Assembly (NCBI GenBank): GCA_028532985.1
Contig: JANCIK010000011.1
Coordinates: 1,984,001-2,048,000 of the forward strand
DNA from: Stropharia rugosoannulata
Lineage: Eukaryota > Basidiomycota > Agaricomycetes > Agaricales > Strophariaceae
Length of the DNA: 64,000 nt
Direction: 5' to 3'
This document shows, in pieces, positions 3,375 to 39,914 of the stretch (position 1 is its first letter; each line of letters begins with the position of its first letter). Both the position numbers and the translations under genes were made by a program. The notes below the pieces were generated by a model that ran no database searches, was not told the origin of the DNA, and saw only the letters and a program-made list of their open reading frames with translations.

Positions 3375-3769
3375 CTAGTGTCTTGCTGTTCCGGTTCTCC
3401 AGCATCCCGTTGATTTGAAGAATGTTAGAATGGCCTTGGCCTTGTCGGGGTCGCTGAGATATTTTCGGGGATGTTTAAGTCCTCTTGCGAAGACTGTCTT
3501 CTTGAGTGCCTTTCTTTGCGTCTTGTATGCTGGGCATGTTTGGGTGAGATGTTCGATGGTTTCTCTGAAATGTAGGTTGCAGGCACGGCAGTATGGAGAG
3601 TCTTCTAGACACATTCTGTGTAGTTCTGCTTGCAACAGTATGACCCCTGTCCTGAGCTGGGTTAAGAGGCTCGATGTGTTTCTGTCTAGAGTTTTAGTGA
3701 TTTTGAAGTACGATGTGTATGGGAACTCAGCATCTATTTGGTCCATAGCTTCTCTTCTGGCCTCTGTCC
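3375..3769 (-). pseudogene. LINE ORF2, C-terminal fragment with CCHC motif
   Basis: This frame encodes the end of the LINE polyprotein downstream of its RNase H domain. It has the cysteine/histidine cluster CRACNLHFRETIEHLTQTC (C-x2-C-x8-H-x4-C type) typical of the C-terminus of LINEs of this group. It aligns with the same region of the intact-frame copy at 41.3-41.65 kb. It is not an independent gene. The reading frame continues from 19386 onward once the KDZ transposon and one copy of the 7-bp target duplication are disregarded. Confidence 0.85.
3763..3769. repeat. KDZ target site duplication, left copy (TCTGTCC)
   Basis: TCTGTCC directly flanks the left TIR and recurs at 19379-19385 directly flanking the right TIR. 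Dropping one copy with the element gives a continuous LINE reading frame across the junction. Confidence 0.9.
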
Positions 3770-4600
3770 CACATAGGACAGTGGCTGGGTACCGTAGTAT
3801 ACGGGACCTCAGTAAACTATTAGTATACCGTAGATCACGGGCCCATTTTCAACAAATGGCAACCTAGTATAATACCGTGATCTACGGGGCTAATGGCAAC
3901 CTATCTTAGTACTGTGTTTCACGGGGCCATTTTCAACAAATGGCATCCGCATAAATAGGTAGGTAAATCCGGCAGAACCAGAAAGTCAAATAATTAAAAA
4001 GCGGTAAAATCGGCGGCGATGTGCGTAAAAAGAGGTAAATTCGGCAGCATTATAATTTTCACAAAATGAATTCCAGCGGTTGTACTGAAAACACCATTTC
4101 TATCCGGCGGATATAGTCACATGATTTTCTCAAATTTCACGGGGCTAGTGGTAAATATTTTAATACCGTGTGCTATAGACTCATTTTCAACAAATGGACT
4201 TGTGAGAGTTTCGATGAGCCGGCTGGAAAAAATCCGGCGGCGAGCTGATGGTGGATGAGAATGGCCTGTCACTCCTCTCCGACTTATCCAAAGCTGATGG
4301 AATGTACCCAAACTGCCCAAAATACTTCCACCCAGCTATCCTTTACGGAGTGGACCAATTGGGTTACCAGGGGCATGTATTCCTTGCCTGGAACAGGGAA
4401 TCATTTTAGCAGGTGAAGCTAAGCGGTCTGCCAATCCAGCAAACTGGCTTTGTCCGCCGGTGAATGCGATATTCCCAGCGAGAACCTGGCGCAATTCAGC
4501 GTCACAGGAGCGAAGAGAGTCGGTCACCAGCATCATAAGGGTTTTTGGAAGATTTGGATTTGATGCCTACAACGGAGACATAACTCCAAATGTTACCCCA
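3770..4600 (+). repeat. KDZ left terminal inverted repeat (~830 bp)
   Basis: The reverse complement of 18548-19378, with coordinates summing to 23148 throughout, so no indels between arms and only scattered substitutions (for example near 4423 and 4490). The outer ~185 bp hold direct repeats of a TTGTTGAAAATGG-containing unit. The open frames within it are mirrored in the other arm and are not genes. Confidence 0.92.
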
Positions 4601-5345
4601 TGATGGGTGTTTGTTCATTGCAAAACACCCCCAGCGACCAGGTGGAGCTGCCAGCCAAACAGCGCAAGTAGGCGGGGGCGGGGGCTCAAGGGGACCAAAA
4701 GGCGCAAAGCGGCGGGGTCGGGGGGGCGCAGAGGACCAAAAAGCCCAAAGGGGCGGGGGCGGGGGCGCAAAGGGGACCAAAAAGCCCAAAGGGGCGGGTG
4801 CGGGGACCAAAAGGCGCAAAGGGGCGGGGGCCGGGGCCCCAGGGGCGGCGGAGCCGCCGGGGGCCGGCGGCCAGGGGCCCCAGGGGGGGCGCGAAGGAGC
4901 CGGCGGCCGGCGGCCATAGGCGGGGGCCTCCGCCCCTTTGGGCCTTTTGGCCCCCCTTGGGCCCCCGCCCTTTTGGGCCCCATGGCCGCCGGCCGGCTGC
5001 TCCGCCGCCTGGGCCCCTGCCTCGCCTTTGCGCCTTTTGGTCCCCGCACCGCCTTTGGGCTTTTGGTCCCTTTGCGCCGCCCGCCCCTTTGGGCTTTTTG
5101 GTCCTCTGCGCCCCCCCGACCCCGCCGCTTTGCGCCTTTTGGTCCCCTTGAGCCCCCGCCCCCGCCTACTTGCGCTGTTTGGCTGGCAGCTCCACCTGGT
5201 CGCTGGGGGTGTTTTGCAATGAACAAACACCCATCATGGGGTAACATTTGGAGTTATGTCTCCGTTGTAGGCATCAAATCCAAATCTTCCAAAAACCCTT
5301 ATGATGCTGGTGACCGACTCTCTTCGCTCCTCTGACACTAAATTG
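4500..5345. repeat. Large GC-rich palindrome inside the left subterminal region
   Basis: The inner end of the TIR (4500-4600) is repeated in inverted orientation at 5255-5345. The DNA between is itself inverted about a centre near 4930. The arms are built of GGGGCGGGG and GGGACCAAAAGGCGCAAAGG-type purine-rich units on one arm and their complement on the other. The region could fold into a ~400-bp hairpin and has G-quadruplex-type runs. All open frames across it are mirror images of each other and low complexity, so I call none of them a gene. Confidence 0.85.
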
Positions 5346-5895
5346 TGCCAGGTTCTTGCCAGAAATATTCTACTGACACACGGAGATAGATGGCCCTGCT
5401 GTGTCAATGGGTGCACATGCGTGCAACACATCCGGCGGTTTCGCCGCCGGATCCATCGCACCTTGACCCTTCCCTGATGTGAAACAATTCTGCAAATGCT
5501 TTTACTACTTCTGTCCTTTCCTACCTCAGCATCCTTTCCATACACCCTTGCATTATTTACTTAGGTCAAGCAAATCACTTTCAATGTTACCTCAAGATGC
5601 AGCTATTATCAGTAATAATCGAGCTTTGTTAACACCTTATTGGTGGGGCTGATATAATGTAGGCCGGTGCATTATATGACGCCAGGATGTGGCGCTGAGA
5701 TCACGTAAGGCCGGCGGAAAGTGAACTTTAAATGTTCGAGCTATGTTGATTGGTGCCGTGGGAATGTTTGCTATTCTTTGTACAATGTTGAACTTTATAA
5801 TAGCTCTAGGCGATCACCGGTTGTTTTCTTCTCTCCCACACCTTCATACTCTAAAAAAATCCCTCTCCTCCTCATTTTTCAAGTCTCGTCATCAA
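5346..5895 (+). promoter_or_regulatory. Upstream region of the zinc-cluster gene
   Basis: No separate gene is supported. Three CCGCCGG/CCGGCGG motifs occur, two as a close inverted pair near 5431-5450 and one near 5710. An upstream in-frame ATG at 5743 would extend the next protein, but it adds a hydrophobic segment of non-conserved look, so I prefer the start at 5896. Confidence 0.4.
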
Positions 5896-8420
5896 ATGGC
5901 CACCACATACAGCAACATGGAGCTCCGAGAGGCAATTCTCGCCTTCCACTTTGATTGCATCAAGGTTTGGGAGGGTGGGGAGCAGGTATACCTGCAGGAG
6001 AGGAAGAGGTTATGGAAGGCATTTGTGAGTATTGATTTCATTTATTATTGGATACTTACATTCTGTGAATAGATTGAACTTCGAGAACGCAAGAAGACCG
6101 CTGCCGGCCCTCGAATCGGGTGGACGCTGTACAGCTATATGCTGAAGCTCGTGTCGTCGGACTCGCCGGCGGATGGAAAGGAGGCGGAAGGTGTGAAGTG
6201 GGAACAGTGGAGAGGAATGGTCGAGGGAGGGCTGTATGTCCTGAGGCGAGAGGACCAGGCCAAGGTTGAGGTTGAACAGTCAAGCCTCCCTGTCATTAGT
6301 AAGTCCTGTTTCATTGCTTAATACATTATACTAATCGTCGCATAGAAAAACGGCCAGATATTGTGAAGGCCAGGGCACCACTTCCGGCGGCTCAGCCGGC
6401 GGCGCAACCGACTGCGTTTCCCGCGCCAGTCCCCATCCCAACCCGTGCACCAGTCCCAATCCCTGCCACTGTCCCTACACCTGCGCCCGTGCCAACGCCC
6501 GCGCCCACTCTGCCTGCAGCGCCCGTGCCAACCCCCGCCCCTATCACGGCCCCAGCGCCTGTGCCAATGCCTGCCCCTATCCCGGCCCCAGAGCCCGTGC
6601 CAATGCCCGCTCCCATCCCGCCCCCAGCTCCCGTGCCAACGCCCGCTCCCATCCTGCCCCCAGCTCCTGTGCCAACGCCCGCTCCCATCCCGCCCCCAGT
6701 CCCCGTGCCAACGCCCGCTGAGCCTATCCCGTCCCCGGCCCCTGCACCTATCCCACCTCCAGCGCCCGTGCAAATGCCCGCGCAAATCCCGGCCCCCGCG
6801 CCCGTGCCAATGTCCGCACCGGAGCAACCCTTAGGTGCAGCGCATGTCTCCCCCTCTCCACCGGCCGTAATCCGCCGGCCAAGAAACAAGAAACTGGCGG
6901 TGAGGGAGAAGACCCCATCCCCAACCGGCGCACATCCGGCAGCATTCCAAGATGTTGTCCAGTCGCAGAAGAAGGTGGTGGTCGAGCTGCCCAAGGGCAA
7001 GAAGGCTCAGGGGAAGAATGCAAAGGGACCCGCAACGCAGCCGGCAGTTGCGGGTCCCTCCAGACTTCCGCCGGTTCGAGCAAGCGAAACCTTGAGTGAT
7101 GACGACGAAGACCCGCCCCTCGCTCGCACTGTGAAAGTCAAGGGAAAGGGAAAAGGAAAGGCAAGGGCAATGGAGGTGGATGAACCCAGCCCGCGGGCGG
7201 CGGCGACCCCAGCCAGGAGAAGCAGGAGCAGGAAGACCGAAGACGAAGACAGCGACGTTCCGGCGGCCGCCGGCAAGGGGAAAGCAAAGGGCAAGGGCTC
7301 GCGTTCGAAGGGGTTGCCCATCCCTGAGGGCTGTTATGCAAGCCAGACTCCCTGCTGGTCTTGCATCAACCGCGGGACGACCTGTCACGTCGAGTCGCCG
7401 GAACACGAGGCCGCCATGCTCGAGGACCCCATCAAGCCCTGTACGACATGCCAGCTGTACAAGAAGCCTTGCTTGAAGACGGCGGGCGCGATCACCCTCG
7501 ACGACAAGGTCAAGCCGTGGGTAAAGCACCTCACGCGATTCATCACCCCAGATGGGGCACGGGCGTTCCCCACACCGACAACTGTGGGAGATACCCTCCT
7601 ACTGACTCTTGAAGCGGCGCAGAAGGCAGTGTCAGGCCTCGAGAATGGCGTCGACGAAATCAGCACCGAAGTTCAGGCGGTGCAGAAGCAGCACAAGGCG
7701 CTATCGAAGAAGTTTGAAGATGGTGTCATCGCGATCAAAAACGTCGAGGACAAGGTCGAGACGGTGGAGAAGAAGGTGGAGACGATGCAGGCGGCGATAA
7801 CAGAGCATGGTGAGATGCTCCTCCACATTGTGGAGGGGCAGGCAGCCATTGTGACGCTGTTGAGGGCTTTGGGGCGAAAGGTGGGCGGAACCGATCCCGA
7901 GTTCTGCCGGGAAGACGATGGCGCATCGAGACAGGACAACTTGCAAAAGTTGTTCCCAATCTCAATGGCAATATTCCAGCGTCATGACGCTCATGCCGCC
8001 GCCGGACGTACACCGGCGGATGCAGGCACCATTCCCCCACCACCACCCATTGCTGCCCCGACACCACCCGCCCCCACAACAAAGGCAAGGTCAAGTTCAC
8101 CACCGGCACCATCTGCTCACAAGGATATGGAGGAGGATGACAATGAGGAGGATGAGCTGGAACAGGATGGCGAGGATGACGACGACGATGACACCGCCGG
8201 CGAGGACGACGGACAAGCAGAGGAGTCAATTTCGCGGGCTGGCAAGAAGGCCCTGCAAGGGAGTCCGAAGCACACCCGTAGTAAGACAAAGGCGAAGGTG
8301 AAGGCAGCAGCAGTGCGTGTGCCCAAGGCGAAGGACACTGCCGGGAACAAACGTGCGCATGAGGAAGGTGACGCTGATCCGCCAGCGAAGAGGGTGCGAG
8401 GTCGTCACGCGAACAAGTGA
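5896..8420 (+). CDS. KDZ-element accessory protein with C6 zinc-cluster-like motif and coiled coil
   Basis: Three exons (5896-6024, 6073-6298, 6346-8420; GT-AG introns) give 809 aa. Visible parts in order are an N-terminal folded-looking segment; a long Pro/Ala region of PVPTPAPIPPPA-type repeats; Lys/Glu-rich low complexity with nuclear-localisation-like runs; a cysteine cluster C-W-S-C-x6-C ... C-T-T-C-x6-C at about 7350-7470; a heptad-like coiled coil at about 7600-7870; and an acidic then basic tail. The cysteine spacing (C-x2-C-x6-C, ~16, C-x2-C-x6-C) resembles the fungal Zn(II)2Cys6 cluster, a family that typically reads CGG triplets. I infer a nuclear DNA-binding role on the element's own CGG motifs. 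Function is unproven; the gene lies wholly within the transposon. Confidence 0.75.
6410..6830 (+). repeat. In-frame proline-rich coding minisatellite
   Basis: About ten diverged ~36-bp units encode 12-residue Pro/Ala/Val repeats of the PVPTPAPIPPPA type. Indels in multiples of 3 keep the frame open. The minus-strand frames over it are shadows. Confidence 0.8.
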
Positions 8421-8589
8421 TAGATTGCCTGTTCCCTGTCCGGTCTCTTGTGGGCATTTGGCCCTTTTTTTTATATTACATTTTGTTCTTGTAGTCAGTT
8501 GAGCTCTTGACCCAGAGTCAAGGGCAAATTCATATTTTTGTGTTTGGAAGCGAATATAAGTCAATTAAGTCAATTAAGCACAAGCAACA

Positions 8590-10840
8590 TTAACTTCTAG
8601 CAGACTTCTTGTTGCTAGACTTGGTCATACTTCGTGTGCGCAATCCATCCGCCGGAATTTTCGTGTTTGAACGTGTTGAACGGCGGAAAGTCTTACCAAC
8701 TACAATCTCTCGCCTGCGTCGCTTCCCCCTGCCTTTGTTCTCCTTGTCATCATTCTCTTCACCACCTGCTACTTTCTTCGCCTTCAATTTGCTTTTCCCT
8801 CCGATATTGGATACATCACGAAGTCCAGGTGGTCTACCCCTTCCCCGGCGGAATATCGATGTCCCCGGCAGCTGTTGCAGACTTGGGTGGCTCAGGTGGT
8901 TTTGCATTCTCTTCAGCATTGCTGTCTTGCACACTTGAATTGGTCTGCTGGTGAGGACCCATGGATACATCGCTATCTGCATTAGACTCTGTGGTAGCAG
9001 CTTTCTCTTTTCCCTTATCTTTCTTTGGCTTCAAAATGAAGTTGGTCGCCACAAAACGCTTATGGACCTTCTTGACCTTTTTCCGCCGGCTCGATTCCGT
9101 CCCTGAAGTATCGCTATCACGAGGTTTAATCTCATCTTTCCGTAGCAGTCGACGCCTGGGTGAGGGTGCGATCTCATCATTTGGCTGATCATCATCATAA
9201 ACAGGATCGGCCGGTGGAATTTCTTCCAATGATGATGATGACGAATATAATGATGAGTTTTCTGCATAGTCTGCCTGATGCTCCAGCTCGGAAAGTCCAA
9301 TATCCTCTTCTACCGGCCTACCCATGTCCGGCGGAGGAATTGAGAATGTTGTAAATATATCTGCGGGATAGACTGCAGGGATACAAGTCATCTTCTCACC
9401 AATAACAGCTTTGAATTTAAATGGAATTTGATCAGCAGCCTGTCGCCGGCAGATAAGATCGAGAATTGCAAATGCCGTTTCCCTGGTGTACTTGGACGGA
9501 TCTTTGAATGCCACCCCACGAGGCATATAGAGTGGGTCTACTAAATCTTGCCAAGCATCAGCCTTTGCCAGATGTGTATAGGGTGGTCCCCTCGACGACT
9601 GTGTTGCTAGACCTGTGACAGGTTAGACTATCATCTCCCCAACAAATAAATATGTGCTTACAGTAATGTAAACCATAATATTTTCGTATCATTCCTTGCA
9701 TGACCCTGACACTTTCCTTTCGTACCTTCGGATTGTATGACAGCACCCAAGGGAGACCAGATGGATGTGTATTACTCCTACCCCCTGTATGGTTAGGGTC
9801 GCCGGCGGAGCTACGTTTGAGTTCAGTGATGTGTTCAATATATTTGATATAACTGGCCCGGATGCCATCATATGCAGCCGGATCAAATTCTTGGAAGCTT
9901 GGGAAATGCATTGGCGCATTGGGCTGCACAACCTGTGTGTCATAACTCGAAGGCAGTCAGGGCCTAGTGCATATATGTAGTCATAATTATTACATACACT
10001 GTGAATGTCGCATTTCCGTCAGGTTTGGTGAATGTTGTGATCCAGAAGGAGCGTACACCCATGCTATCAAACATCTTCTTGTCAACCTCACGACAAATGT
10101 CTGCACAATGTTTTACAGCCTGTCTAAAAACATATCAGAATGAAGCCGCTGCTCAGACAATTCACATACTTGGCTTGGACATCCGGCGGAACACCCTTTG
10201 CTTTCCACTCCGAGACCTCATTTTGATACTCGGCTCGCTCCTCTTCCGTAAGCATTTCCTTGATATATTTCTTCGCCCCTGCATAGTACCTGATCCAGGA
10301 TCGGCTGCTATAGCCAGCACCAAGGGAGGCGGTCTTGGCGTCATCATCGCCAGATTCCGCCGGATCGTCCGCCGGATCGGGAATGAGATCTTCATCAGAA
10401 TCGGCAGCTGCCTCTCGCGCTCGACGCTTTGCTTCTTCCTCAATCTCCTTGCTTTTGTGCGCTATCAGTACTGAATCGAAAGTGACTTCCATATTAAAGC
10501 CTTTGATTTTCATACGTCTGGAGGTCTTTCCATTGTTCTTAAACCAATTAAATATTGACTGAAAGTATCGACATTGAGTAATGTGCACATAATATAATAT
10601 TGTACTTGCCTTTTTCTTCTTCTTCCACTCTTCCTGGACCTTATCGTTGAAATCTGGATTGTTTCTCTGGTACCTTGTGCCCCACAGTGCCTTGATCATT
10701 TTGATAACCTTCTCAGCAACAAATGTTCCCTTTCTCTCCTTCACCTGTGCACGATAACCCTCAACATTGCTTCGTAGAATTTTCAATTCTTGTGCAGTCC
10801 AGATGTATGTCGATGCAGCAGTTTCTACCGGTGGTGTCAT
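8590..10840 (-). CDS. KDZ-element accessory protein of unknown function, with a possible C-terminal frameshift
   Basis: Five exons (10840-10610, 10558-10170, 10123-10000, 9932-9662, 9612 to 8834) give 597 aa with consistent phases. The first intron is GC-AG (AG/GCAAGT). The N-terminal ~95 aa are basic with a WFKNNGKTSRR-like segment. A charged region with acidic runs follows, then a conserved-looking middle region rich in aromatics (YYGLHYC, RGPPYTHLAKADAW) and a basic Lys-rich tail. Near 8840 the frame ends at a TAG just after a CCGCCGG motif and G runs. A second frame with a plausible basic C-terminus runs on to 8590, so an indel or an unseen intron may be present. I do not recognise the family. 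It is divergent from the transposase gene, sharing a 172-bp spacer, and convergent with the zinc-cluster gene. Confidence 0.65.
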
Positions 10841-11012
10841 TGGAGGAGGGGTATAAATTGGTTCGATGAATGGATGTCACAATGGTATACGCAGTATATA
10901 TATACATACAGACATGTGTATCGATATCGATTATTATGAAGCAGTACACATGTGCCATTGGTTTCTTAATATAAGGTCGAACACCAAATGCACATGCAAC
11001 TGTCTACTCCCA
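10841..11012. promoter_or_regulatory. Shared divergent promoter region
   Basis: 172 bp separate the start codons of the unknown minus-strand gene (10840) and the transposase gene (11013). It contains TATA-like stretches (GGTATAAAT near 10849 and GTATATATATAC near 10895). Both genes are probably transcribed from it. This is an inference from geometry. Confidence 0.5.
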
Positions 11013-14000
11013 ATGCGCCGTGTCCGTATAACCCAGCACAATGTTCCCAATCAAGCTGGTGGCATCCAGATAGAAGAGCGGGACCATAGAGGAAAGGTCA
11101 TCACAAAGAAGCGTAAACGTGGTGGTGAACCTGTCGCAGAGAATGTAGCACCGACTATTCCTGCTATTCCTGCTATTCCAGACGTTCCACCAGGCTTTGA
11201 ACCACAGGAAGTACCTGACCGTCTTGACTATGCTGGAGATATAACTGAGGATCAGGTTATCGAAAACCTACAAAACTTGGATTTACCAGTATACAGAGGC
11301 AAGGTATGTTGTATCACCCACATGAATTGCACACTGCATATATTAAATCGTGCAGTCGCAAAACGATTTTCTTAGAGAATGGCTTGTCAGAAGGGATACC
11401 CACTTGAAGATTGTTATGGCATCCCATGCACCTGCCAGAGGGATCGATACATGCAATGCCTGCAATGCACCTGCTGCCAAATGGAAGTGTAAGGAATGTT
11501 TTGGAGGACGACTCTTATGCACGATATGTTGCCGGCGGACTCATGATTTCATGCCATTTCATCGTATTCTTCGTTGGGATGGTAGTGCGTTCACACCGGC
11601 AGCGCTATGGCAGGTCGGTGTAAAGCTTCATCTTGGCCATCAAGGAAATAGATGTCCTAATACAATGGTGGACTACAATGATATACAAGAAATGCAAGAG
11701 GCGCAGTATGGCGATGAACATGAAGGCGATATCCGCCGGGCTTACAATGCTGGTCTGCAACCTGAAGCCGAGGAAGCCGCCGATGAATATATTGATGAAG
11801 ATACCATTGTATTTGATATTGATGTTACTTACCCTCGAGTCTTACCGAGGCCAGCCCAACATGATACCCATGGTAATCCATTTGTTACGATTGTCGAAGT
11901 AAATGGAATCCATCACCTGCCGGCTGTCAAATGTCACTGCCACAATCAGCCGCCGGAGGATAACCAATACATGCAGCTGGCACTATTCCCAACCTCTTTC
12001 GATGTTGTCAAGACTGTCTTCACATTTGCTGTTCTTCGAGACTTCAGGCTGTCAAACCTGGAATGCAAGACATCAGCATATCAGTATTACACGAAGCTCC
12101 GCCGGTTGACCTGCCCAGCCTTCCCACAAGCAGTACTGGATCGATACCGTGAGCTCCGCCGGCTTAGTAGACAGTTTCGGAACATGAAGATGTGGACCAT
12201 GCATGGCCGAGCTCATGGACTATGGCGCCCAAACCCTGACCCACCAGCTATCCCGGAAGTGCGGATTCTTGCTGATAATGAAATACCAAATGAGGATATT
12301 ATGCCTCCACCAGTTGCAGAACAGTCTGAATCAGACAGTGAAGATGGGACACCAGAAGACGCCGCCGGTACCTCCGCCGGAGGGATTAAAATGACACCAT
12401 CAATGTACGGCGATATACTGGCTCTATTTTGCCCTGCTTGTCCTCAACCAGAAATCAACCTCCCTGAAGACTGGAAAGAGAATGACAAGAAGTTTCTTTT
12501 TATCCGCAAGTACTGTGCTGATGGGAACTTCAAGGCTGACCATTTAAATCAAAAGAATGCCCATGACGATATTGATTTGACAGCCGGCCAGGCATTCATG
12601 ACAGCCGCCGGTCCTTACCAGGAGCATTTGAAGGATGCAACAAAATATTCCAGGAATTTCAAAGAGCCGCCGACTTGCCATTCTCATCGTGCACAGCTGG
12701 ACAGTGAAAAGGTTGTTTCTGGCCGCCGGGTGAGAGGGATTGGTGTACAGGCATGTGCAAGACATGGCTGCTTCTGTCCAGGCAGTCTCGTTGACTTTGA
12801 ATTGGGCGAACGTCAAATGTGCATGGACTACAGTATTTCTGAAGCACTCAAGCATACCAACACCGGCGGCATCGAGACTGTCATGTTCATTTATGACATT
12901 ATGTGTCAGTTCTACAAGAATATGACTAGGCGATTTCGACTAATGAAGGGTCTCACTTGGCCACAAAGACTTCGATGCATACGCGCAGTCGGTCTCTGGC
13001 ATGTACATGGCCACAAGACAGAATGTCTATATAGATGGGCATCTACCTATATCCCAGGTGTTGGCATGGTAGACGGAGAGATTCTGGAAACACTATGGAG
13101 CCTGCTAAACAAGACATCTCGCAGTGTTCGGACTGCGACCGCCGGCCATAGAGCTGAAGTACTCGATGATCACATGGGCGATTCTAATTGGAAGAAGACG
13201 GTCAATATGCCATCTACAATTATCAAGAAATATATTCGAGCAGTGAATCATGAAATTGATTCCATTGTGTACTATAACGATATTACTGCAAGTATGCCGG
13301 CGGATAAGCTCCCAGACTGGTTGGAACAGATCGAGGCTGCTGAACGCCGGCGAGATGAGGAGCCAGAAGCAATGGACATTTATCGACCGGCTGTGCAGAA
13401 GGCTGCAACCATGCGAGAAATTGAGGTGCAGCTTTCAGAGAATGAAATTCGAAATGGAGAGACCGGCGGTCGAGCTGTTTGGCTCTCACAGGGTATTCAA
13501 GCAGAGCAATTGCAGTGAGTAGTATCAATCATGATTACCAACCAATTTATTCATTATTTAGAAATGAATTGCGGTCCCACGTCCGCCGTATGCCTCGAGA
13601 TCCTACAGTCGCTCAGCGTCAGGATCTTGTACGCCGCCGGCACACACTTCGCAAGCAGCTAGACAAATTTGCACGCAATGCTGTCGACATCATGGGCATT
13701 GACATTGTGAATGCCTTTAATGATGAGCATGAAGTTGCCATTCTTGATGGTGCACAAACAGATGAAGAAGCAGAGGTGGCTAATGAAGCAGTCAGTTATG
13801 CTGACCCTGAAAGGCAGCTGATGGCATTCCCTTCAGAAATCACTGAAGAGATTCTGACAGCCGCCGGTGCTTCTGCCCAGGATAAATCTGTTCTCCGCCG
13901 GTTGCGAAAAACAGAGCTAAAGATCAGAAAAGCTCATGCTGATGATTTATTAGAATCAATTCGTGGTGAAATCATTCAGAAATCTTGGCTATATGCATTT

Positions 14001-14716
14001 GACGTCAGGAGGACAGATGGTGCACATCACACCAGAGCTCAGGATCGTGTGGTCGTGTTGGCACAGGCAACCAGTACACACCGGCGGAAATATAATGAAA
14101 ACAGATTGTCAATGCTACGCCTTGCAAGGGATGACACTGATAGGGCTGCCATTGATCAACAATTCCCCATCATGTCAAAAGCTGATACTAATACTAGTGC
14201 ATCCATAACTGAGCCGAATGCAAGAGGGGGTAGCAGTTCTCGAATGTCTTGGATATGGAGAATTGAACATAATATGGAGCCGCCGGTTGGCAATCCGCCG
14301 GTCGAAGGAAATCTCAATCGGGAGAGAATCAATGATTGTACGTTTCATTGATACTCGTCGAGCTATGACTAAATACAATTAAAGTCTATCGTATTCATTG
14401 GCTACGAGCAAGAGCACAGAAAATGCGCTGGGAGGAAGAGGTTGTGCTATGTCAGCATGAAATGGACTGGACAGTCCGGTTCTATGTGCATATGGCAAAT
14501 ATGTGGAAAGACCGGCGGAACGTCTGGGCAGATGCAGTGACCGCCATTCAAAACCCATCAAATGACGCCGCCGGCCAATTTAATGCTCACCCACTAGGTT
14601 TCCAAGCTTACGCGCAGGCACAGATCAACTTATGGAATGAGTTAGGTAGGGTAGCGGACGCTAGATTTAGTAAGGCACATGTCAATTATATAAGCCACTG
14701 GTATCATGTGGCCTGA
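11013..14716 (+). CDS. KDZ (Kyakuja-Dileera-Zisupton) transposase with CxC2 cysteine cluster
   Basis: Four exons (11013-11303, 11356-13514, 13562-14337, 14385-14716) give 1185 aa, in frame throughout. The N-terminus is charged. At about residues 127-185 lies the CxC2-like cluster (CNAC, CKEC, CTICCRRTH and a GHQGNRCPN element) that accompanies KDZ transposases. The core has the hallmark segments YDIMCQF, GLWHVHGH, DGEILETLW and EVLDDHMGDSNWKK in the usual order, giving the expected acidic residues of the RNase H-like fold. The C-terminal region ends with the IHWLRARAQKMRW and EMDWTVRFYVH segments typical of the family. It would cut and move the element at its TIRs. There are no internal stops, so it may be functional. 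The motif CCGCCGG recurs about 20 times in the gene, read in three frames (PP, RR, AAG). Confidence 0.93.
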
Positions 14717-14817
14717 GAAATGAATACATGTGACCTTATCGATCTGCGATCAACATCAACAATCCTCCAAAATTTCTTCTTCGACACTCCTAACACCTTG
14801 TCATCATCTATCTACTA

Positions 14818-16774
14818 ATGTCCTCCTCCATCTCCATTGAGAATTCCACGGCCGGGACAACCGAAGACTCTCTCATTGACAAGATTCAATGCAACATCTT
14901 TTTGTATATTTGCATGGTACGAATCCGCTGCGCCCTCCGCTGCCATCCCACGCCCCAAGACATTTCACCAACGGACATGTTTTCAAGGCTATTCCTGCGA
15001 GAAATTGTAGGGAATATTTATGATATTGGTGTATTATTAACTAAAAAACCATCATTTCAGGAATTGACTCTCATGCACATCGGTGCTTGCAATTTGAAGG
15101 GATATCAGATGTGCAAACCGTATCTTCTCGATCAAATCACGGCCGCCGGATATGGCGTCGCCCGCCGGCCAACCATCTTCCCACTTCCAGCCACCTACGA
15201 TCCCGAATTCATGCAAAGGGAAGACATTATTCACATTGCTGTCACAGATAATGTGCCCACGTGGTGGCTAATGGATGACAATGAGCTTTATGACCAAGAT
15301 GTCACCTGGGACGACCTTCACGATCATTTCTGCAAATTCTTGGAGGTCATGCGTGACATGTACAAGGATACAAAGAAAATCCCTGACTTGCTAGCCGGTT
15401 GCGACTACCCATACGAGTACATTCCTGGGCTCGCAGAACGTCTGCCGGAATTAGCTCTGCCAGTTACAATGTGCCTCTCATGCCAGTCCTACCAGAAGAA
15501 AATTTGGTGGCTGAAGTTCTACCATAACATGATGGAAGAAGAATTCGATAGGGAGCCATGTGTTCAGAGAAGCGAGCCAAGAGAAGTTTTGTGGGAAATG
15601 AGGGAGGAACCTGCGGATATTCCGCCGCCGGAAATGAGCATCCATGACATTCTCCCAGGGTGTCTACTCATAAGGTATGTAAATTCACTGTCAGATCCTT
15701 ATGTCATCCCATCTCCCTCGCTTTAAAGACACCAACATATCAAACATTTGCCGTCTCCGAGCAAATCAGATAATCAAATGGGTATGATAAGTCGATCTCC
15801 CTCTCCCTTCCACCCAAAACGGAGTCGTTCCGCCGGTCCATCCGGCGGCATCGCCCGACCCATTCCCAGAGTCACAAAACCAGGGCATGCGTCTGAAGCC
15901 GAAATGCAGGCAATGTATGCTGCACGCTACCGTCGTTGGAGCCCATCCCCGGAAGTATCCCTGCCTCTGGTCGACTATTCAGTGCCCTGCAACAGGGATG
16001 CACCAATATATATTTCATCAGACAATGAGGCGCCCGATGACGCACCCGCCGGCAAAGAAGACAGCAAATATGATGCCCCCCTTGATGCACCGGAGGGTAC
16101 ACAGCAGACAGAGGACAGAGACAGCATTGCACGTGATGGTCCTGATGAAGAAGAGGAAGCCCCCCTCGATGTCACAGTAGGCTCTCGGGATACTGACGAT
16201 CTGCCAATGGATGAGCAGCCACCCCATGCATCCGCCGGCGAAATGGAAAACGATGATGATGCCCCCCTCGATGCGACAGAGGGTAAACAGGGAAGCGAGG
16301 GACCATTAAATGTTCCCGGGATTGATAATGAAGATGAAGAGGCCCCCCTCGATGTCCCAGTAGGCTCCCAGGTTACTGACGATCAGCAAATGGATGATGA
16401 GCCTCCCCACACATCCGCCGGCCATCAGCATGACAATGATGATGCCCCCCTCGAAGCACCAGCGGGCACACAGGAGAGGGAGGGTCCTGATGAAGATGAA
16501 GAGGCCCCCCTCGATGTCCCAATTGGCTCTCAGCCTACTGAGGATGAGCCTATGGATGAGGATGACGCCCCTCTGAATGTTTCCGCCGGATCGGACAATG
16601 ACGACGATGCACCACTGGGCAAGTCTCTCATTTATTACCTATATATTACATACTAATAAATAGACACTAGATGTGCACAATGACGAAAATATGGATGACA
16701 TCAGCTCGGTATGCACTTCTATTCCCAATTCCTGGAGCCCCAACTCAAGCTCCAGTTCTGACTTTTCTGATTAG
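14818..16774 (+). CDS. KDZ-element accessory protein with acidic APLD repeats
   Basis: Four exons (14818-15006, 15061-15674, 15729-16618, 16671-16774) give 598 aa; the last intron is GC-AG (GG/GCAAGT). The N-terminal ~270 aa look folded, with Trp/Tyr-rich segments and a possible C-x2-C pair (MCLSCQSY). The second half is disordered and strongly acidic, with about eight copies of an (E/D)APLD(V/A) motif spaced 25-45 residues apart. Splicing at 16618/16671 regenerates one more such repeat, which supports the model. It starts 101 bp after the transposase stop on the same strand and is convergent with the TET/JBP gene. I do not recognise the family. The acidic repeats suggest a histone- or protein-binding or activation role, which is inference only. 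Confidence 0.75.
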
Positions 16775-16983
16775 GAGGCCAATGCGGATGGCGAAAGCGA
16801 CACTGAGATGTGACGCAGACGGCGGGATTAATTTTTGCTTGTCATTGAATCCGCCGGCCTCATCTATTTTTCCATTTTTTTTCGTTTCTTGTCGCCTGCT
16901 CAAGTCCTTTAGGCCTTCGTAATATCTCAATTGTAATGTGTTTGGCCTGCTGGCCAATTTTAATAATAAAAATTATAATATTT
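16775..16983. terminator. Convergent 3' region between the acidic-repeat and TET/JBP genes
   Basis: A 209-bp spacer between two facing stop codons. It has an AATAATAAAAATTATAATA stretch near 16960 that could serve as a polyadenylation region on either strand, and one CCGCCGG motif near 16851. Confidence 0.45.
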
Positions 16984-18226
16984 CTACTCTATCTGTCTAA
17001 ACATATTTACATTTGCCCAAGTGCTAACAGTGTCAGTCAAATCTGATATTGCAGACTTTGAGTGAAAAACTAAACAAGTCCTGTCACCTTCACAGTGAGC
17101 ACTGTGAACCACTAGCCTACTAGTCAAGGCAACAAATGTTCCAGCCTTATACTCTAAATCCAAACCCAACCCTGGGAGAGCCATTTTACCTGTTTTGTAA
17201 GGACCCAAACTAATGATGATATCAAACATTGAATGGCTTCCGCCGGAATCTCGATGCGGTGGCGAGTCTCTATTGTTGATGACCGTAAGCACCCCAAATG
17301 GAACACTCCAATGTTCAAGTAGTCCCTCCAACTCTGGACCATGCCGCACTTCATCAGGGTGATCACTTAGCCAGCTAAGCATTTTCAGTCCGGCAGCATA
17401 CTGGCTGGGGTTGACAATACTGAGGAGACCGCCGATCAGCGCAAAAAAATCCTTTTGCTTCTTTATCCATGCTCGGCCGCCGGACATCCTAAGTTTGCGA
17501 CCAACAATGGGTGGCCCAAAGCACTAGTTTTTGTCAGACACAGTATTTATTTCTTCCGCCGGACGTACCCCATGCCCCATCTCAAACCATGCAATCGCAA
17601 GGCTAACATTGCCCGCCTTTCTCCACCCATCTCTCTGATGATAATGATCAAGCCCGCTTCTCCAATTTGCTTTACATTTGGTGGTCTTCATCAAGCATGT
17701 TAGTTCGTCCACACTTCGCCATAGTTCCTCCTTTCTCTGCTGGTTAACTGTCTAGGCCGGCGGAGAAATGACGCAGTCTTACCTGCAGATATGACATTAT
17801 TGCATTTGGAAGGTACCATACTAATATGTTGCCCTCCTTGTCGGTCACCAAGCAAGGCTTCCTTAAATGCCGTGTCTCCGTAAATATTGGCGGGTACTTC
17901 TTCAGCATTTTATTTTCAACATTTTCATTCTTCCCTGTTTGTTTACTCGACATGCTCTGTTTGTAGTCATGGACACTCCAAGATGTTGAATCTGATTTAT
18001 TTTAGTAACACTTATATTGATCATCTATTAATGTCTTACATTTGTTCTTGAACGCTGTCACCAGAGAGTCAATAATATGCTCGCATTCCCATGTCAAATG
18101 TGCTGTCAATGCTTTTGGTGACTCAGGGGGGCTGGTCTTGTTGACATGGCACAAGAATGAGGTATGCATATATGCAGCCACAACCTCTGTCATCTCTCTT
18201 GGGCTATATGAAAATTTGGGAGTCAT
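16984..18226 (-). CDS. TET/JBP-family 2-oxoglutarate/Fe(II) DNA dioxygenase
   Basis: Four exons (18226-18040, 17991-17783, 17739-17569, 17523-16984) give 368 aa with matching phases. The N-terminal half contains a GNILVWYLP segment. The C-terminal double-stranded beta-helix shows the iron-binding HxD (PPHRDSGG) and, ~65 residues later, a distal His followed by the 2OG-binding Arg region (VVHSAHCEGDRTCLVFH). The wording and layout match the short fungal TET/JBP enzymes that oxidise 5-methylcytosine. No stop or missing ligand is visible, so it may be active. Location inside a KDZ transposon fits the known KDZ-TET/JBP association. Likely role: oxidising CpG methylation on the element or elsewhere. 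CCGGCGG motifs lie inside two of its introns. Confidence 0.85.
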
Positions 18227-18289
18227 GGTTGATTGAAGGAAAGAGGTGTGTTGATCATGTGATTGAAATATTTCTGGATTTTCTCATCA

Positions 18290-18470
18290 GGTATAGGGGG
18301 AGGGTGCGAGGGCGGGGACCCAAAGGCGGCGGGGGCCCAAGCGGCGGAGTATGCCGCCGGCCATTCGGCGAAAGAAAACGCTCAAAAGTCCCGCAAAACG
18401 CCCCAAGGGGCCTCAAAGGGGCGCAAGGTGACCCAAGGAGGAGCAGGTACGCGTTAGCCGCCGTCTCCAT
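18290..18470 (+). repeat. GC-rich right subterminal tract
   Basis: Purine-rich, G-run DNA (GGGGGAGGGTGCGAGGGCGG and similar) that resembles in composition one arm of the left palindrome but is not a perfect copy. No gene is supported. Confidence 0.6.
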
Positions 18471-18547
18471 ACCAACCTCTGGTGCCTCTTCAACGGTCTG
18501 CGCTGTAATGCTCTATGAGTATTTTTTCTAATGAAGACAGACCAATC

Positions 18548-19378
18548 ATGGATAACATTGGGAGTTATGTCTCTGTTGTAGGCATCAACTCCAAATCTCC
18601 CGAAAACCCTTATGATGCTGGTGACCGACTCTCTTCGCTCCTGTGACGCTGAATTGCGCCAGATTCTCGCTGGGAATATCGCATTCACCGGCGGACAAAG
18701 CCAGTTTGCTGGATTGGCAGACTGCTTAGCTTCACCTGCTAAAATGATTCCCTGTTCCAGGCAAGGAATACATGCCCCTGGTAACCCAATTGGTCCACTC
18801 CGTAAAGGATAGCTGGGTGGAAGTATTTTGGGCAGTTTGGGTACATTCCATCAGCTTTGGATAAGTCGGAGAGGAGTGACAGGCCATTCTCATCCACCAT
18901 CAGCTCGCCGCCGGATTTTTTCCAGCCGGCTCATCGAAACTCTCACAAGTCCATTTGTTGAAAATGAGTCTATAGCACACGGTATTAAAATATTTACCAC
19001 TAGCCCCGTGAAATTTGAGAAAATCATGTGACTATATCCGCCGGATAGAAATGGTGTTTTCAGTACAACCGCTGGAATTCATTTTGTGAAAATTATAATG
19101 CTGCCGAATTTACCTCTTTTTACGCACATCGCCGCCGATTTTACCGCTTTTTAATTATTTGACTTTCTGGTTCTGCCGGATTTACCTACCTATTTATGCG
19201 GATGCCATTTGTTGAAAATGGCCCCGTGAAACACAGTACTAAGATAGGTTGCCATTAGCCCCGTAGATCACGGTATTATACTAGGTTGCCATTTGTTGAA
19301 AATGGGCCCGTGATCTACGGTATACTAATAGTTTACTGAGGTCCCGTATACTACGGTACCCAGCCACTGTCCTATGTG
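18548..19378 (-). repeat. KDZ right terminal inverted repeat (~830 bp)
   Basis: The reverse complement of 3770-4600 with no indels. It ends CCACTGTCCTATGTG directly before the target duplication. Confidence 0.92.
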
Positions 19379-19385
19379 TCTGTCC
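19379..19385. repeat. KDZ target site duplication, right copy (TCTGTCC)
   Basis: Identical to 3763-3769. Confidence 0.9.
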
Positions 19386-22300
19386 TGGAATCCCTCTCCT
19401 TCCACCACTTTGTCCATGTCTCCGTTCACTGCCTCTTCGCTTCTTGGCACAGTACTGAGGCGCTAATTTTCAGTTTTTTGTGGAGGATTTTCGGTAGCCA
19501 TATAGTGGGGGTAGCTCTCTGGAGTGCGGCTTCTTTGGCCTCTGCATCTGTTTGCTCGTTTCCTGGTACTTTGCTGTGCGCAGATATCCAGTGAATTGTA
19601 AACCTTGTACGTTGGAGGATGGGGTTCTTTAATGTGTTGGTGATGGTACGGAACGCAGCCATGACATGCTGTCCCGGTCCTTGGGTGTCTTTCGAGGCTG
19701 TTGTTATGACACTTTGGCAGTCTGTGAAGATCTCGATTTTTCCGTTTGCCTGGTTGGAAGCGTCCAGTCATTTGATGATGTGAGCAGCCAATATTAGGCC
19801 CACTCCTTCTGTGTCGTATGTTGAATATTCATGACTGGGGCCGAGGTAGTACCGAAGTGTATTTGAGGGTGTGTTATGATCTTTCCTGTACATCACTGCA
19901 GCTGCGCCGACGCCTCCTTCGTAGCCCGATCTGTCTGTGTAGATTCTTATGTCTGCTGTAGTGGAGGTCTCATATTCAATTGTGTCGTTACGGTTGCTGG
20001 CAGTGCAAGTGCTGAATCGAGGCTTGGCTGATGGGGATTGAGTGAACGGTCTGATCTTTTCGACAGTTGTGGGTTGAATGTTGAACATACGGATTAACTT
20101 GGTCACTTGGGTCTTGTTGGATGTGGGTTGCGTGGGTGGTGATTGCTGTATTAGGGGGTAGTTTGGGTGGGATTTCGGTAATGTTGCCATTCGGATGGTT
20201 GCTCTGTGGCATATGTGCTGCAGTAGCGCCTTCATACAGGGTATGTTTGCGTGCGCTTCTGCAATGTCGCCAGCTGTATTCCCCATGGCTCCTGTGATTG
20301 CAATGCTTGCCAGTCTCTGTATGCTCGACATGCGCTTTTTTGCTGCTACTGAGCCTGAGTTGTGAATTCGGCCTTCGTTCTTGTTCATGGGGGTGTACCA
20401 TACTTCTAGTGTGTATGTTAGTTTTGGTATGCCTACTGTTAGATATAGTTGTTGCATTAGGTTCAGCTTGACCCCTGTTGACAATCGTGTTAGTCTTTTG
20501 AACATAAGGACCCATTTTAGTGCTTTTTCGGTTGCTCGTTGGAGTTGAGCCTTCCAGCACAGTTCTGAATCTATCATCACCCCCAGGTATTTGTATGTCT
20601 CGACCACTGCAATAGCCTCGCCCTTTACTATGAGCGTTGGTGCCGTGTGTCGAAGTTTTGATCTTTCTCCTGTACCTGGGTCCGTGTACATCTTTTTTGA
20701 GAAGTGCATTACTGCTACTTTGCTGATTTCGAAGCGTGAGTTATGTGTTTCTGACCATTCGATCGCTCCTCCCTCTCGTTCCATCATGTTGCGAAGCGTT
20801 TCAACTGTGTCCTTGAAGGTGTCACCTATTGCTATCATGACTGCATCATCTACATATTCTATTGCGTCTTCGTGAACAGTACTATTGGGGATTTCGATAA
20901 GGTCAGTGTTGTATAATATGTATATTATCATGGATAGTGGGCATCCTTGCCCCATTCCGTTGTTCATTGTGATGAAGGTTGATAGGAAGTCGTCGAATCG
21001 CAGTTTGGTTTGTCTTCCTTCAAGCATCTTCTCTATTAGTCGTACGTATTGTTCTGGTATTTGTCGTTTTCTCATATTGTGTATGACACGATCCGTGACT
21101 GCATTGGGAAAGGCACCTTCGACGTCTAGGAATAAGACAGATATGACTTTACCTTTCTGCCAGGCTTTGTTGATTTTTGCTGTTAGGTAGTGTAGTGCAT
21201 CTGTTGTGGTACGTCCTGGTCGTCCTCCGAAATGGTTATTAGGTAGTAGTTGGTTGGTCTCGATGAGATAGGACATGTCCTCGGTGATTATTGCTGATAG
21301 TAGTTTGGCAGTGGTGGAGAGAAGTGCAATGGGCTGATAGGCTTTTGGTTGTTGGTAGTCAGGTTTTCCTGGTTTTTTTAGCACGCATGTTATGGACTCT
21401 TTCCAGCTCTTGTGATACCAGCCGTGTTGGATTGCTGCGTTGAATATCTTAGTTAGTATATCTGATATCATGTCTATAGTTTCTTGGAGAGCAATGTTAG
21501 GGATGCCATCGAGGCCTGGTGCTTTGTATGGTGATAGCGATTTTAAGTGACATTTTATTTGTTCTGTGTCTAGCGGTGTCGCGGGTGTGAGTGGTTCAGG
21601 GTACTGTTGGTTTGGGGGTATGGATGAGTTCGTCGGTTTGGGCAGGAAAAAAGACTTAGCTAGTATTTCAGCTTTTCCTTCATTGGTTGTGATGATCTTG
21701 GTTGTGCCATTGTTGAGTTTCTCTTTGAGTGATGGTATTCGTGGTCTTCCTCCGTCGCCTACTGGCTCCTTTATGTATTTGTTTGCTATCCACATTTCTC
21801 GCTCAGATGCCTCCTCGAGGAAATCCGCCCAGTGGTGTTTCTTGGTCTCAGCTATTTGTTTGGCATATATCGCCTGGTGCTCTTTCCATTGTTCATGAGC
21901 TTCGTGGTGCGGCAGTGCTTGGAATTTGTAAGATAGACGACTTAGCTTGCTCCCCTTTTTCTTCATCTGTGTCAGTTCAGTTGTCCACCAGTGTTTGGAC
22001 GAGGGGAATGGTCTTGTCATTGGGACAATAGCTTCGATTGATTCTTGTAGTTGGTGGGTAAGGTCTTCTACCGCTTTGTTGAAGGATGATTCACTGGTGA
22101 TATCTGCTGTCCAGTCAGTTTTCGATGTTTTGAGTCGCTTTGTAAGGTCGGCTCTGAAGGCCGTCCAGTCTGTAAGCCGGAAGTTGCGTCTTGTTTCTTG
22201 GTTTGATGAGGTCTTGGAGATGTCTAGAATTGTACCTATGGGGTAGTGATCAGTTTTGGGTGGTCAGAGATGTGGAAGTACTTCACATTTGATTACTAAT

Positions 22301-23007
22301 TTGTCTAATCCCACTGATCCGAATATATTGTCAGGTCTTGAGAACGAGCCTGTGGCCCAGTGCTGTAGAGTGGGTAGTCCTTTTGGTAGTAGCATAGTCA
22401 TGTTCCACTTAGCTTGTAGTTCTATCAATCTCTCCGCATCCTCTATTGCTTTGCTTGTGAATAGCCTTGTGCTGTCCGCATCATTGGCCCATAATGGGTG
22501 ATGGCGATTGAAGTCGCCGCACCATAATACATGCTTGCCTGGTCTGTAAAGGTCATTGAGGTTTTGCTCGATGAAATTGTCAAGGGCTGTTTGAGCATTG
22601 TCGTTGTTACAGTCATTGTAGGTGTTGAAGATTGTGAGAGTGCCCGTTGTCGTGTCAAGTTGTATTGCTGTGACGTCTGCTGTGTTGGGTATGGTTAGTG
22701 CTCGCCATGAATTTGTACTTATCTCTGCATTAACCCATATTGCTGATTGTACTCCTTTCTGTTTTCGCAGTTCTCCTTCTGGGTATACCTGATGAAAGCC
22801 ATTCAGTGTTGATACATTTTTGTAGTAGTTGACGTGCGGCTCCTGGATTAGGAGCACGTCCCATTCGTCTTTGAGGGCGTCATTGATTAGCGCGAGATGC
22901 GCATGTTGCGATTTACATAGATTTGCCTGTAGTATACGTAGATTAGTGGATAGGTAATTTATATTAGGTTGTACATTGTTGTTGTCGTTTTGGTTGTGAT
23001 TATTCAT
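19386..23007 (-). pseudogene. LINE ORF2: endonuclease, reverse transcriptase, RNase H (three nonsense codons)
   Basis: A single frame from the ATG at 23007. An apurinic/apyrimidinic-type endonuclease is at about 22960-22260 (ILQANLCKSQHA, LLIQEPH, WCGDFNRHHPLW, SRPDNIFGS). The reverse transcriptase is at about 21700-20500 with FLDVEGAF and the catalytic EYVDDAVM. A second-domain RNase H is at about 19950-19430 (YTDRSGYEGG, a Glu in the DTEGVGLILA helix, TDCQS, HSKVPGNEQTDAEAKEAA). The frame is interrupted by TGA at 22264-22266, 19768-19770 and 19426-19428 with no frameshift, then by the KDZ element at 19378. The C-terminal part is at 3375-3762. It would have copied LINE RNA into target DNA; now inactive. 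Confidence 0.9.
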
Positions 23008-24491: not shown

Positions 24492-24641
24492 GTATTGGGT
24501 TATTGACGATTGAATATTGGTTTATTGTGCTTCTATGCGTGTATAAATGTTGTATTATATGCTACTATGATGCTCTACATGTCGCTGAGGGCCTAATGTG
24601 GCTGTGCAACGTCATGGTATGAGATCAAAGAGCCTTTTAGT

Positions 24642-24651: not shown

Positions 24652-25660
24652 TACCCTTGTATTACTCAGATAGTATGAGCAATGATACTAAATAGAAATA
24701 TATGTTGTTATGGGACATTATATTCTTAGACCTATTAGTATGTGTTTTAGACTATATAGCAATTATGATTTAGAGCTCAATTACATATATCAGGACTTAT
24801 AGAAACTTTTTGATAATATAACAGCTTTATATATCTCTATAAATATTACACCTCATGTTATGATCAGGTAAAGCTAATTACTCTTTACATAGTGAGAATA
24901 GACAATCCTATACATCCTCATTTGTCATCTTAGTTGCCAATTATGAGCTATGGGGGAGATATTCCCTCTAGAAAATTTGACAAAATTAGAATTTTGTACC
25001 CTAAGATTTGAAACTTCTCTACACACTGTTCTAGTAATGGGATACTGTATTCAGATCCTTTGTCTTTGACACCTGTGTGTACATCTTCTCCACTGTGTCC
25101 CCTTTCCTGATCAGGGTTGTATACCCCTGTTTACCCCTTTGTATCTACAGTATATATACTGTAGATACTCATGTACATAGTGTTGCCATGGTTTGACTTG
25201 ACTGCGGTTGAGTCAGTAAGTCAAGCCATTTTTAAGCTGCTTTAACCGAACCACAACTTGACAGCTTGAGCCAGTTAAGTCACGGTTAAGCCGTTTGGTA
25301 TTGTCCATATTTGGACATTAAGCTCTGAGGGCAATTGGGGCACTCTATGGTACTTAAAATACAAATTTATGGCTCTGTGAGCCATGTCATACTGTATACA
25401 GAAAAAAATAACTCTGATAGAAGTATCTGAAGCCTGAATTTACCTATATGTGTCCAAGTGGTTGTGGTGTAGCTGTGACAGCCTGGATCTGTGACACATC
25501 TGTGACATGTGACACATTTTGCCTAGGGCAACCTACCTTTGTTGCAGAAGAGTGTATTGCGGGCAAGGGACTAACAAAACAGCATTTCTAAGTAATTGCT
25601 TGCCATTATGGAGAGGTGTACTGACATATTACACTGAGTTTCTATGTAAATAGCATGGAA
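24652..25660. other. AT-rich intergenic DNA with no supported gene
   Basis: I see no coding potential or paired repeat. There is a short TATATATACTG stretch near 25151 and a run of GTGACA-type repeats near 25490-25515. It may include the far end of the decayed Gypsy element, but no second LTR is available to compare. Confidence 0.4.
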
Positions 25661-25666
25661 TTTGCG

Positions 25667-39907: not shown

Positions 39908-39914
39908 CCCCAAG

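Follow-up and report, generated by a model that had tools for sequence, protein, structure and literature searches.

The KDZ element and its dispersed heptamer

The stretch analysed here (the window, 64,000 bp of Stropharia rugosoannulata contig JANCIK010000011.1, positions 1,984,001 to 2,048,000, with coordinates counted from its first base) contains a KDZ transposable element at 3770–19378 (no strand assigned) in which one heptamer, CCGSCGG (S being C or G), occurs 68 times. The element is bounded by 829-bp terminal inverted repeats (TIRs), the left on the plus strand (3770–4598) with the terminus CACATAGG and the right on the minus strand (18550–19378) with the terminus CCTATGTG, which are 99% complementary and carry three sites each, and it is flanked by a perfect 7-bp target site duplication (TSD), TCTGTCC, with plus-strand copies at 3763–3769 and 19379–19385. 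A plus-strand open reading frame (ORF) of 705 amino acids (aa) at 6303–8420, with 9 sites, encodes a zinc-cluster-like domain and a predicted long coiled coil and is the reader proposed below. It is followed by a minus-strand gene region (8590–10876, with ORFs at 8590–9030, 8834–9622, 9558–9956 and 10124–10876 and 8 sites within the tallied stretches) and by the KDZ transposase exon ORF (11347–13518, plus strand, 13 sites against 1.1 expected), which matches PF18758 together with CxC2 PF18803 (4.5e-44 and 1.5e-21) and whose named top relatives are from Flammula alnicola (53%), Psilocybe cubensis (42%) and Galerina marginata (46%). Beyond these lie the ORF next 3' of the transposase exon (13519–14351, plus strand, 6 sites), two more plus-strand ORFs of 310 and 309 aa (14794–16656, 9 sites) and a minus-strand TET/JBP dioxygenase exon ORF (16984–17523, 2 sites), which matches PF12851 (5.6e-13; 48.9 bits, above the cut-off of 34.9) and has HxD in PPHRDSGG.

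An earlier note on this DNA had put the number of CCGCCGG and CCGGCGG copies in the element at about 65–70, and exact counting over 3770–19378 confirmed this observation, with 43 copies of the former and 25 of the latter (65 sites in all with the TIR counted once). The two forms are reverse complements differing in the centre base only and make up one word; forms with A or T at the centre have 0 and 0 copies where 1.4 each are expected. The density of 4.36/kb compares with 0.10/kb genome-wide, a background that predicts 1.6 copies in the element, and in the 7-mer count against a null that the earlier note had called for, CCGSCGG was the most over-represented 7-mer (68 vs 3.5 by Markov model, z 34). 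Single-base neighbours have 0–13 copies each, the commonest being the CpG-transition form CTGCCGG (13 vs 3.5 expected), and some others are modestly raised (CAGCCGG 9 vs 3.5; CCGCCGC 9 vs 2.8). The flanks are near random beyond one base, with T or G at position −1 in 62 of the 68 sites and C in two, and G at position +7 in four. Elsewhere in the window, in agreement with what had been noticed by eye, there are no copies in the LINE (19400–24600), none in the repeats at 24–43 kb and five (0.24/kb) in the GC-rich host genes at 43–64 kb.

Sites were seen in the TIRs, in spacers and in long ORFs, as had been described, in all three frames and also in both orientations, with 47 of the 68 in ORF stretches and similar densities in the TIRs (3.6/kb) and the interior (3.2–7.2/kb). 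Their first bases are at 4104, 4234, 4454, 4854, 4864, 4900, 4907, 4986, 5432, 5444, 5711, 6166, 6384, 6396, 6872, 7068, 7260, 7267, 7999, 8013, 8194, 8649, 8845, 9083, 9328, 9802, 10183, 10357, 10369, 11532, 11733, 11950, 12099, 12156, 12362, 12374, 12605, 12723, 12863, 13139, 13297, 13463, 13634, 13861, 13895, 14081, 14280, 14295, 14512, 14568, 15143, 15162, 15625, 15830, 15842, 16046, 16232, 16415, 16583, 16851, 17240, 17477, 17556, 17757, 18354, 18688, 18908 and 19038, those at 17556 and 17757 being the two that the earlier note had reported near 17560 and 17757. The CGG-CGG direct repeat that it had also pointed out is one reading of the word, but CCG-S-CGG, with everted half-sites, fits both forms at once.

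Raw gaps between sites are no more regular than random (coefficient of variation, CV, 0.88 vs 0.98). When sites no more than 40 bp apart are merged, 28 of the 54 gaps fall between 150 and 250 bp where 11.8 are expected (0/5000 random placements) and 9 between 40 and 150 bp where 19.4 are expected, with a median of 214 bp, the CV alone being borderline (P 0.047). This excess near 200 bp, which was noticed after looking and in one element, persists at merge distances of 0–60 bp and without the TIRs, has a corrected P of 1/3000 in a scan over all 100-bp windows and is accompanied by a second peak near 400 bp. Close doublets are also in excess, with 11 neighbouring pairs 7–19 bp apart against 3.7 expected and five at exactly 12 bp. 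The idea that decayed motifs fill the long gaps was unconvincing, 7 of the 14 long gaps being without any variant. Peaks near 200 and 400 bp would suit a nucleosome or chromatin organiser, with a host factor that binds CCGSCGG and phases nucleosomes and an element filled with such sites. Such an organiser is nevertheless improbable, as the word is not enriched across the genome (48 Mb, 20 contigs: 2490 + 2381 = 4871 copies against 2497 + 2563 = 5060 of the reversed word), is sparse among the window's host genes (0.24/kb) and is absent from sister families described below, which a host factor would leave unexplained.

The element also contains a large GC-rich imperfect palindrome (4448–5389 and around 18309–18349) with CCAAAAAGCCCAAAGGGGCGGGG-like units, whose 310-bp arms are 94% complementary.

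Boundaries, coding constraint and conservation

Of 40 TIR matches found in the genome, 30 element ends were examined with 1.5 kb on each side. CCGSCGG occurs 227 times in 54.3 kb inside these ends against five times in 45 kb outside, four of the five outside sites belonging to a second element that adjoins the first in the window; the reversed word occurs 68 times inside and not at all outside. CCGSCGG is missing from two of these ends, L015 and L033. The second element, whose end lies at 1209–2859 on the minus strand, has the same terminus (191 bp, 98%) and seven sites (1300, 1786, 1860, 1983, 2141, 2542 and 2601), part of them carried by tandem repeats of 159–170 bp at 1209–2323; it finishes at 2859 and extends leftward, with no frame above 81 aa in 1–2859. 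Eighteen ends share only a 208-bp terminus with the autonomous element, their interiors having no detectable homology to it, and these hold 123 CCGSCGG in 27 kb, with at least two in 17 of the 18. Their longest open frames are 75–144 aa (1.7 kb of each end read; pairs span 3.1–12.4 kb), and since the ORF-poor interiors are mutually related they represent one independent lineage and not 18. The termini CACATAGG...CCTATGTG (5'-CA..TG-3') are present in all 11 end pairs, and a 7-bp TSD in seven of them, including all five long-TIR pairs (spans of ~12.8 to 28.5 kb), the remaining four being without an exact 7-bp match.

At least 81 transposase matches were found in the genome (62 of 203 candidates scored), and 30 of these were examined by sequence. 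All nine stop-free copies examined, which cover the 723-residue exon or 721 of its residues, carry 2.7–4.6 sites/kb, and in copies interrupted by several stops the figure is as low as 0.2 sites/kb. L015 and L067 (contig 15, 1–10755) represent a CpG-poor TET/JBP-remnant-bearing relic of the family of the window element (family 1), and AAAAGAC words are abundant in L067 and in the window at 34–43 kb. Nine CAGCGG in L015 were considered as a shifted code and set aside, the TIR being CpG-poor and the CAGCGG stretch without homology to the element.

The abundance of the word could in principle be a by-product of composition or codon use, of GC-biased gene conversion or of a dispersed micro-insertion, and the element does exceed its repeat-side surroundings in GC and CpG content. 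When codons were shuffled synonymously, however, the transposase exon ORF gave a mean of 1.12 and a maximum of 6 sites against the 13 observed (0/2000), so that the similar counts which would have pointed to coding constraint were not reproduced. The 705-aa ORF (9 vs 1.45), the 301-aa ORF (7 vs 0.64) and the 309-aa ORF (6 vs 1.17) likewise exceeded all 2000 shuffles each, the 301-aa ORF overlapping the transposase ORF with the site at 13463 counted in both tests, and no shuffle in 2000 reached the count of the TET/JBP exon with its two sites. Smaller ORFs gave weaker results, the counts of the 310-, 262- and 250-aa ORFs being reached by 8, 5 and 1 of 2000 shuffles. Among all 6- to 8-mers under the synonymous null the word tops the 6- and 7-mer families in the family-1 ORFs (7-mer 34 vs 4.45), and the same search in three LINE ORFs gave nothing above z 4.6. 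Markov model, codon shuffles, neighbour words and all-word search together rule out composition or codon bias as the cause, and the reversed word has only 10 copies in the same DNA. A micro-insertion or longer repeat is rejected also, as only two site pairs besides the three TIR pairs reach 16/24 identical flanking bases. With an exact 7-mer whose neighbours are far rarer, random flanks and constrained fourfold positions (below), the by-product explanation is already contradicted and is scarcely credible.

Four conserved Arg-Arg pairs are encoded by CGC CGG or CGG CGG in the window element and by AGA AGG, CGA CGC, CGT CGC, CGT AGG and similar in two related KDZ families (families 2 and 3), and at other sites the encoded amino acids differ too, as at 12605 (AAG vs AAQ or AAL). 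Residues encoded by the motif are conserved to a family-2 copy (L066) at 21 of 39 positions, much like the others (372/662). The statement in the earlier note that protein constraint does not explain the motif is well supported by codon-preserving shuffles, synonymous-base conservation and the sharp TIR boundary.

Conservation was examined at fourfold-degenerate C or G third positions whose first two codon bases are unchanged. Between subfamilies of family 1, 86–100% of those within the word are conserved, against 52–60% in other CpG context and 59–74% of the others; the excess appears in all eight directed comparisons, drawn from five copies and not independent of one another, with Fisher values of 0.0003 and 0.02 for the two comparisons computed. 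Between the window copy and a subfamily-B copy (L040), 21 of 22 whole motifs are kept, compared with 24 out of 33 among the remaining GC-only 7-mers; against subfamily C the motif (15/23) is not separated from such controls (22/32). Motif losses are mostly CpG transitions, as judged by eye. For CpG retention, copies were sorted by hand into ten better-preserved and twelve decayed ones, with a consensus from the ten; L040 and L044, each with a single in-frame stop, are among the ten, the stop-free L037 was grouped with the twelve, and L055 is in neither group. Motif CpGs were retained at 0.911 vs 0.813 for other CpGs in the ten (column permutation p 0.004) and at 0.568 vs 0.486 in the twelve (p 0.04), and in dead copies they decay to TpG or CpA nearly like others (109/264 vs 267/566). 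In the same copies CpGs near motifs are no better preserved than distant CpGs, so that protection of neighbouring CpGs was not found. Judged from these sequence comparisons, CCGSCGG is a real and strong word under selection. As a separate observation, the CpG observed/expected ratio is 0.61–0.93 in the element, against strong depletion in the adjoining repeats at 25001–27000, 35001–36000 and 39001–40000 (0.16–0.24 and 0.04).

KDZ families and the candidate reader

The earlier note had asked whether other KDZ copies carry the motif. Copies of the same family do, but three related families have the word rarely or not at all, with no CCGSCGG in six family-2 loci (L058–L061, L063 and L066, which make up five places because L059 falls within L066) and none in the one 10-kb family-3 locus (L064), two in 10 kb (L065) and one in 8 kb (L068) of family 4. 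It is therefore a trait of the family and not of KDZ elements, and its candidacy as a general KDZ signal was dropped. Family 4 has a dispersed word of its own, TCGGCC, with 35 copies in 10 kb (L065:1–10000) against 6.9 by Markov model, 14 vs 4.8 in three ORFs (0/1000 synonymous shuffles) and seven gaps of 7–19 bp where 1.5 are expected. Twenty-seven copies have W before and H after, and WTCGGCCH, with flanks chosen from the same data, occurs at 2.7/kb against 0.124/kb genome-wide and not at all in the family-1 element. As TCGGCA is raised too (27 vs 8.8), the family-4 code is less sharp, and the all-word search of family-4 ORFs placed AGGCCG and not TCGGCC at the top. L065 and L068 are 98.8% identical over 7.4 kb and hence count as one observation. 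For family 2, CGGCGCC (10 vs 0.8 in ORFs, each palindromic place counting as two) or GAAAGGTA (at five places, identical in five aligned loci) is possibly the word, both being fewer and less even than CCGSCGG. ORFs resembling those of the minus-strand region at 8590–10876 are, by eye, present in families 2 and 4.

The likely reader of CCGSCGG is the zinc-cluster/coiled-coil protein of the element, which was found with family 1 only. Its ORF has the pattern C-x2-C-x6-C-x18-C-x2-C-x6-C at residues 351–390 (Cys 351, 354, 361, 380, 383 and 390) within a conserved Zn2Cys6-like domain (7302–7560, plus strand). Unlike Gal4-type regulators, it has an 18-residue loop between the Cys triads and a Pfam score below the gathering cut-off (Zn_clus PF00172, 13.0 bits vs 21, E 0.12); such a loop is long for Zn2Cys6. 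The six-Cys pattern is kept in one subfamily-B and one subfamily-C sequence, whose second triad is one residue longer. Between subfamily A and subfamilies B/C, 48 of 72 columns of the zinc domain are identical, against 36–41% in most of the long matches of a 505-aa stretch. When the predicted domain model was compared with known structures, all 11 structures listed among the 29 chains placed highest by Foldseek were Zn2Cys6 domains, as were nine of ten for a longer model (listed among the best 26 chains); searching PDB sequences with the domain gave no match.

At E<=1 the zinc domain matched 24 genomic places, with an identity of 55–100% at 23 of them and 37% at one. Among the matches listed, 20 of these places adjoin a family-1 transposase match and none adjoins a transposase of family 2, 3 or 4; of the rest, one lies by a subfamily-B TET/JBP match, one by an intermediate copy with a 68% match and two by none. 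An intermediate KDZ copy at G000:C5:1641737-1648940 has a transposase of 68% and a zinc domain of 37% identity. Outside the host genome, the whole ORF gave 38 matches that we judged to be mainly low-complexity, and no homologue of the zinc/coil region was found. The ORF also contains 36-bp tandem repeats (6425–6748) that encode Pro/Ala-rich units.

Proposed function and known systems

We lean slightly towards the reading that CCGSCGG serves one KDZ family as a cis-acting recognition site, kept by selection along the whole element, ORFs included. In a first step, the Zn2Cys6-like coiled-coil protein (ORF 6303–8420) would probably bind CCGSCGG as two everted CGG half-sites, and the ~200-bp spacing with doublets would let this reader cover the whole element. 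In a second step, put forward more tentatively and by analogy with VANC21, such coating might keep the element unsilenced, either by excluding silencing factors or, in subfamilies having one, by bringing the element's TET/JBP to methylated CpGs; only DNA with the family's address would then be protected, in the manner of VANC/VANDAL21. Subfamily C weighs against this reading, for its copies (L042, L044 and L045) carry both word and zinc protein but give no PF12851 match, two of them showing only a 46-residue TET/JBP match with stops nearby; the enzyme may thus be an optional partner, and the odds of the second step, of the whole and of the wider proposal given below are lowered. Families 2 and 3, for their part, have TET/JBP matches and lack CCGSCGG, so TET/JBP does not track the word. 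The same distribution speaks against the word being a direct enzyme substrate, in which case the element's TET/JBP, or a target-specific methyltransferase, would act by preference on the CpG-S-CpG pair itself and no separate reader would be involved. Each site does have two CpGs 3 bp apart and the element does contain a TET/JBP gene, but motif CpGs in dead copies decay nearly like others, as given above, and this explanation is very improbable.

An alternative to shielding is a site for transposition, at which the transposase, or an accessory protein that could be the zinc protein, compacts or synapses a 12–28 kb element for excision with no silencing role. It would account for sites in both TIRs (three each) and in shorter relatives needing mobilisation in trans, suits the ~12.8 to 28.5 kb spans of long-TIR pairs and, needing no TET/JBP, fits subfamily C. 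Known transposase sites cluster subterminally, and the even density of CCGSCGG in TIRs (3.6/kb) and interior (3.2–7.2/kb) goes against this role, as does the lack of the word in family 2, whose transposase is 56–60% identical over long matches; we regard it as unlikely. The interpretation in the earlier note is supported in part. A transposase site, one of its options, becomes less likely because sites are spread throughout the element; a recognition site that identifies the element as self is well supported by the sharp TIR boundary, the codon shuffles, synonymous conservation and the sites in all nine stop-free copies; and its zinc-cluster protein as reader gains indirect support from family restriction, the conserved domain and the Zn2Cys6-like model.

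The proposed shielding can be set beside VANDAL21, a MuDR-type element (PMC12730594) of Arabidopsis in which a 9-base word is enriched and VANC21 localisation accompanies loss of CG methylation (PMC5735166). Both have a short dense word limited to one family, with other words in sister families, and an element-encoded DNA-binding protein, here a candidate. VANDAL/VANC words are mainly non-coding, in the same orientation and in tandem repeats (PMC5735166), through which VANDAL21 is reported to gain motifs and which are partly matched here in the ORF-poor relative; in the autonomous element, by contrast, the word is not tandemly repeated and lies also in ORFs (47/68), on both strands, with random flanks and ~200 bp apart. 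The transposase is KDZ, the candidate reader Zn2Cys6-like and TET/JBP present in some subfamilies, unlike VANDAL21, and anti-silencing, reported for VANC21, is a proposal here. KDZ transposase, TET/JBP, 7-bp TSD and 5'-CA..TG-3' termini are shared with the TET-positive KDZ/Kyakuja elements described for Agaricomycotina in PMC12730594, the main text of which has no occurrence of 'zinc', 'ccgg' or 'subterminal'. Two Laccaria Kyakuja families in that text have no TIRs, unlike the present element, which on account of its 829-bp TIRs was filed as KDZ and not Kyakuja.

Zn2Cys6 regulators form coiled-coil dimers that as a rule recognise two CGG triplets, which may be inverted, direct or everted (PMC5559640). 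Like Gal4, Leu3, Hap1, Put3 and Ppr1, the candidate reader has a six-Cys pattern with a coiled coil, and its predicted domain aligns with Zn2Cys6 structures; unlike regulators of the Gal4 type with one or few sites per promoter, it would have dozens of candidate sites per target. No report of CCGSCGG in KDZ elements was found among titles and abstract openings of the open-licence literature. A wider proposal, which we consider doubtful, is that mushroom KDZ families have their own address codes over their full length including ORFs, by synonymous and amino-acid changes, and that each family's own reader shields self and directs TET/JBP where present, with CCGSCGG in family 1, (W)TCGGCC(H) in family 4 and possibly CGGCGCC or GAAAGGTA in family 2.

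These sequence data suggest a new variant of sequence-addressed transposon self-recognition with a proposed reader. Some mushroom genera have very many TET/JBP genes adjoining transposases (PMC12730594), and with a dispersed address word and a Zn2Cys6-like candidate reader encoded by the same element a mechanism becomes directly testable. If the proposal is true, a DNA signal would be shaping the coding DNA of a selfish element, 47 of its 68 sites lying in long-ORF stretches, and the TET/JBP-bearing subfamilies would have a sequence-addressed enzymatic anti-silencing system; VANC-like self-recognition would then extend to a second kingdom and involve a different transposase and a different DNA-binding fold.

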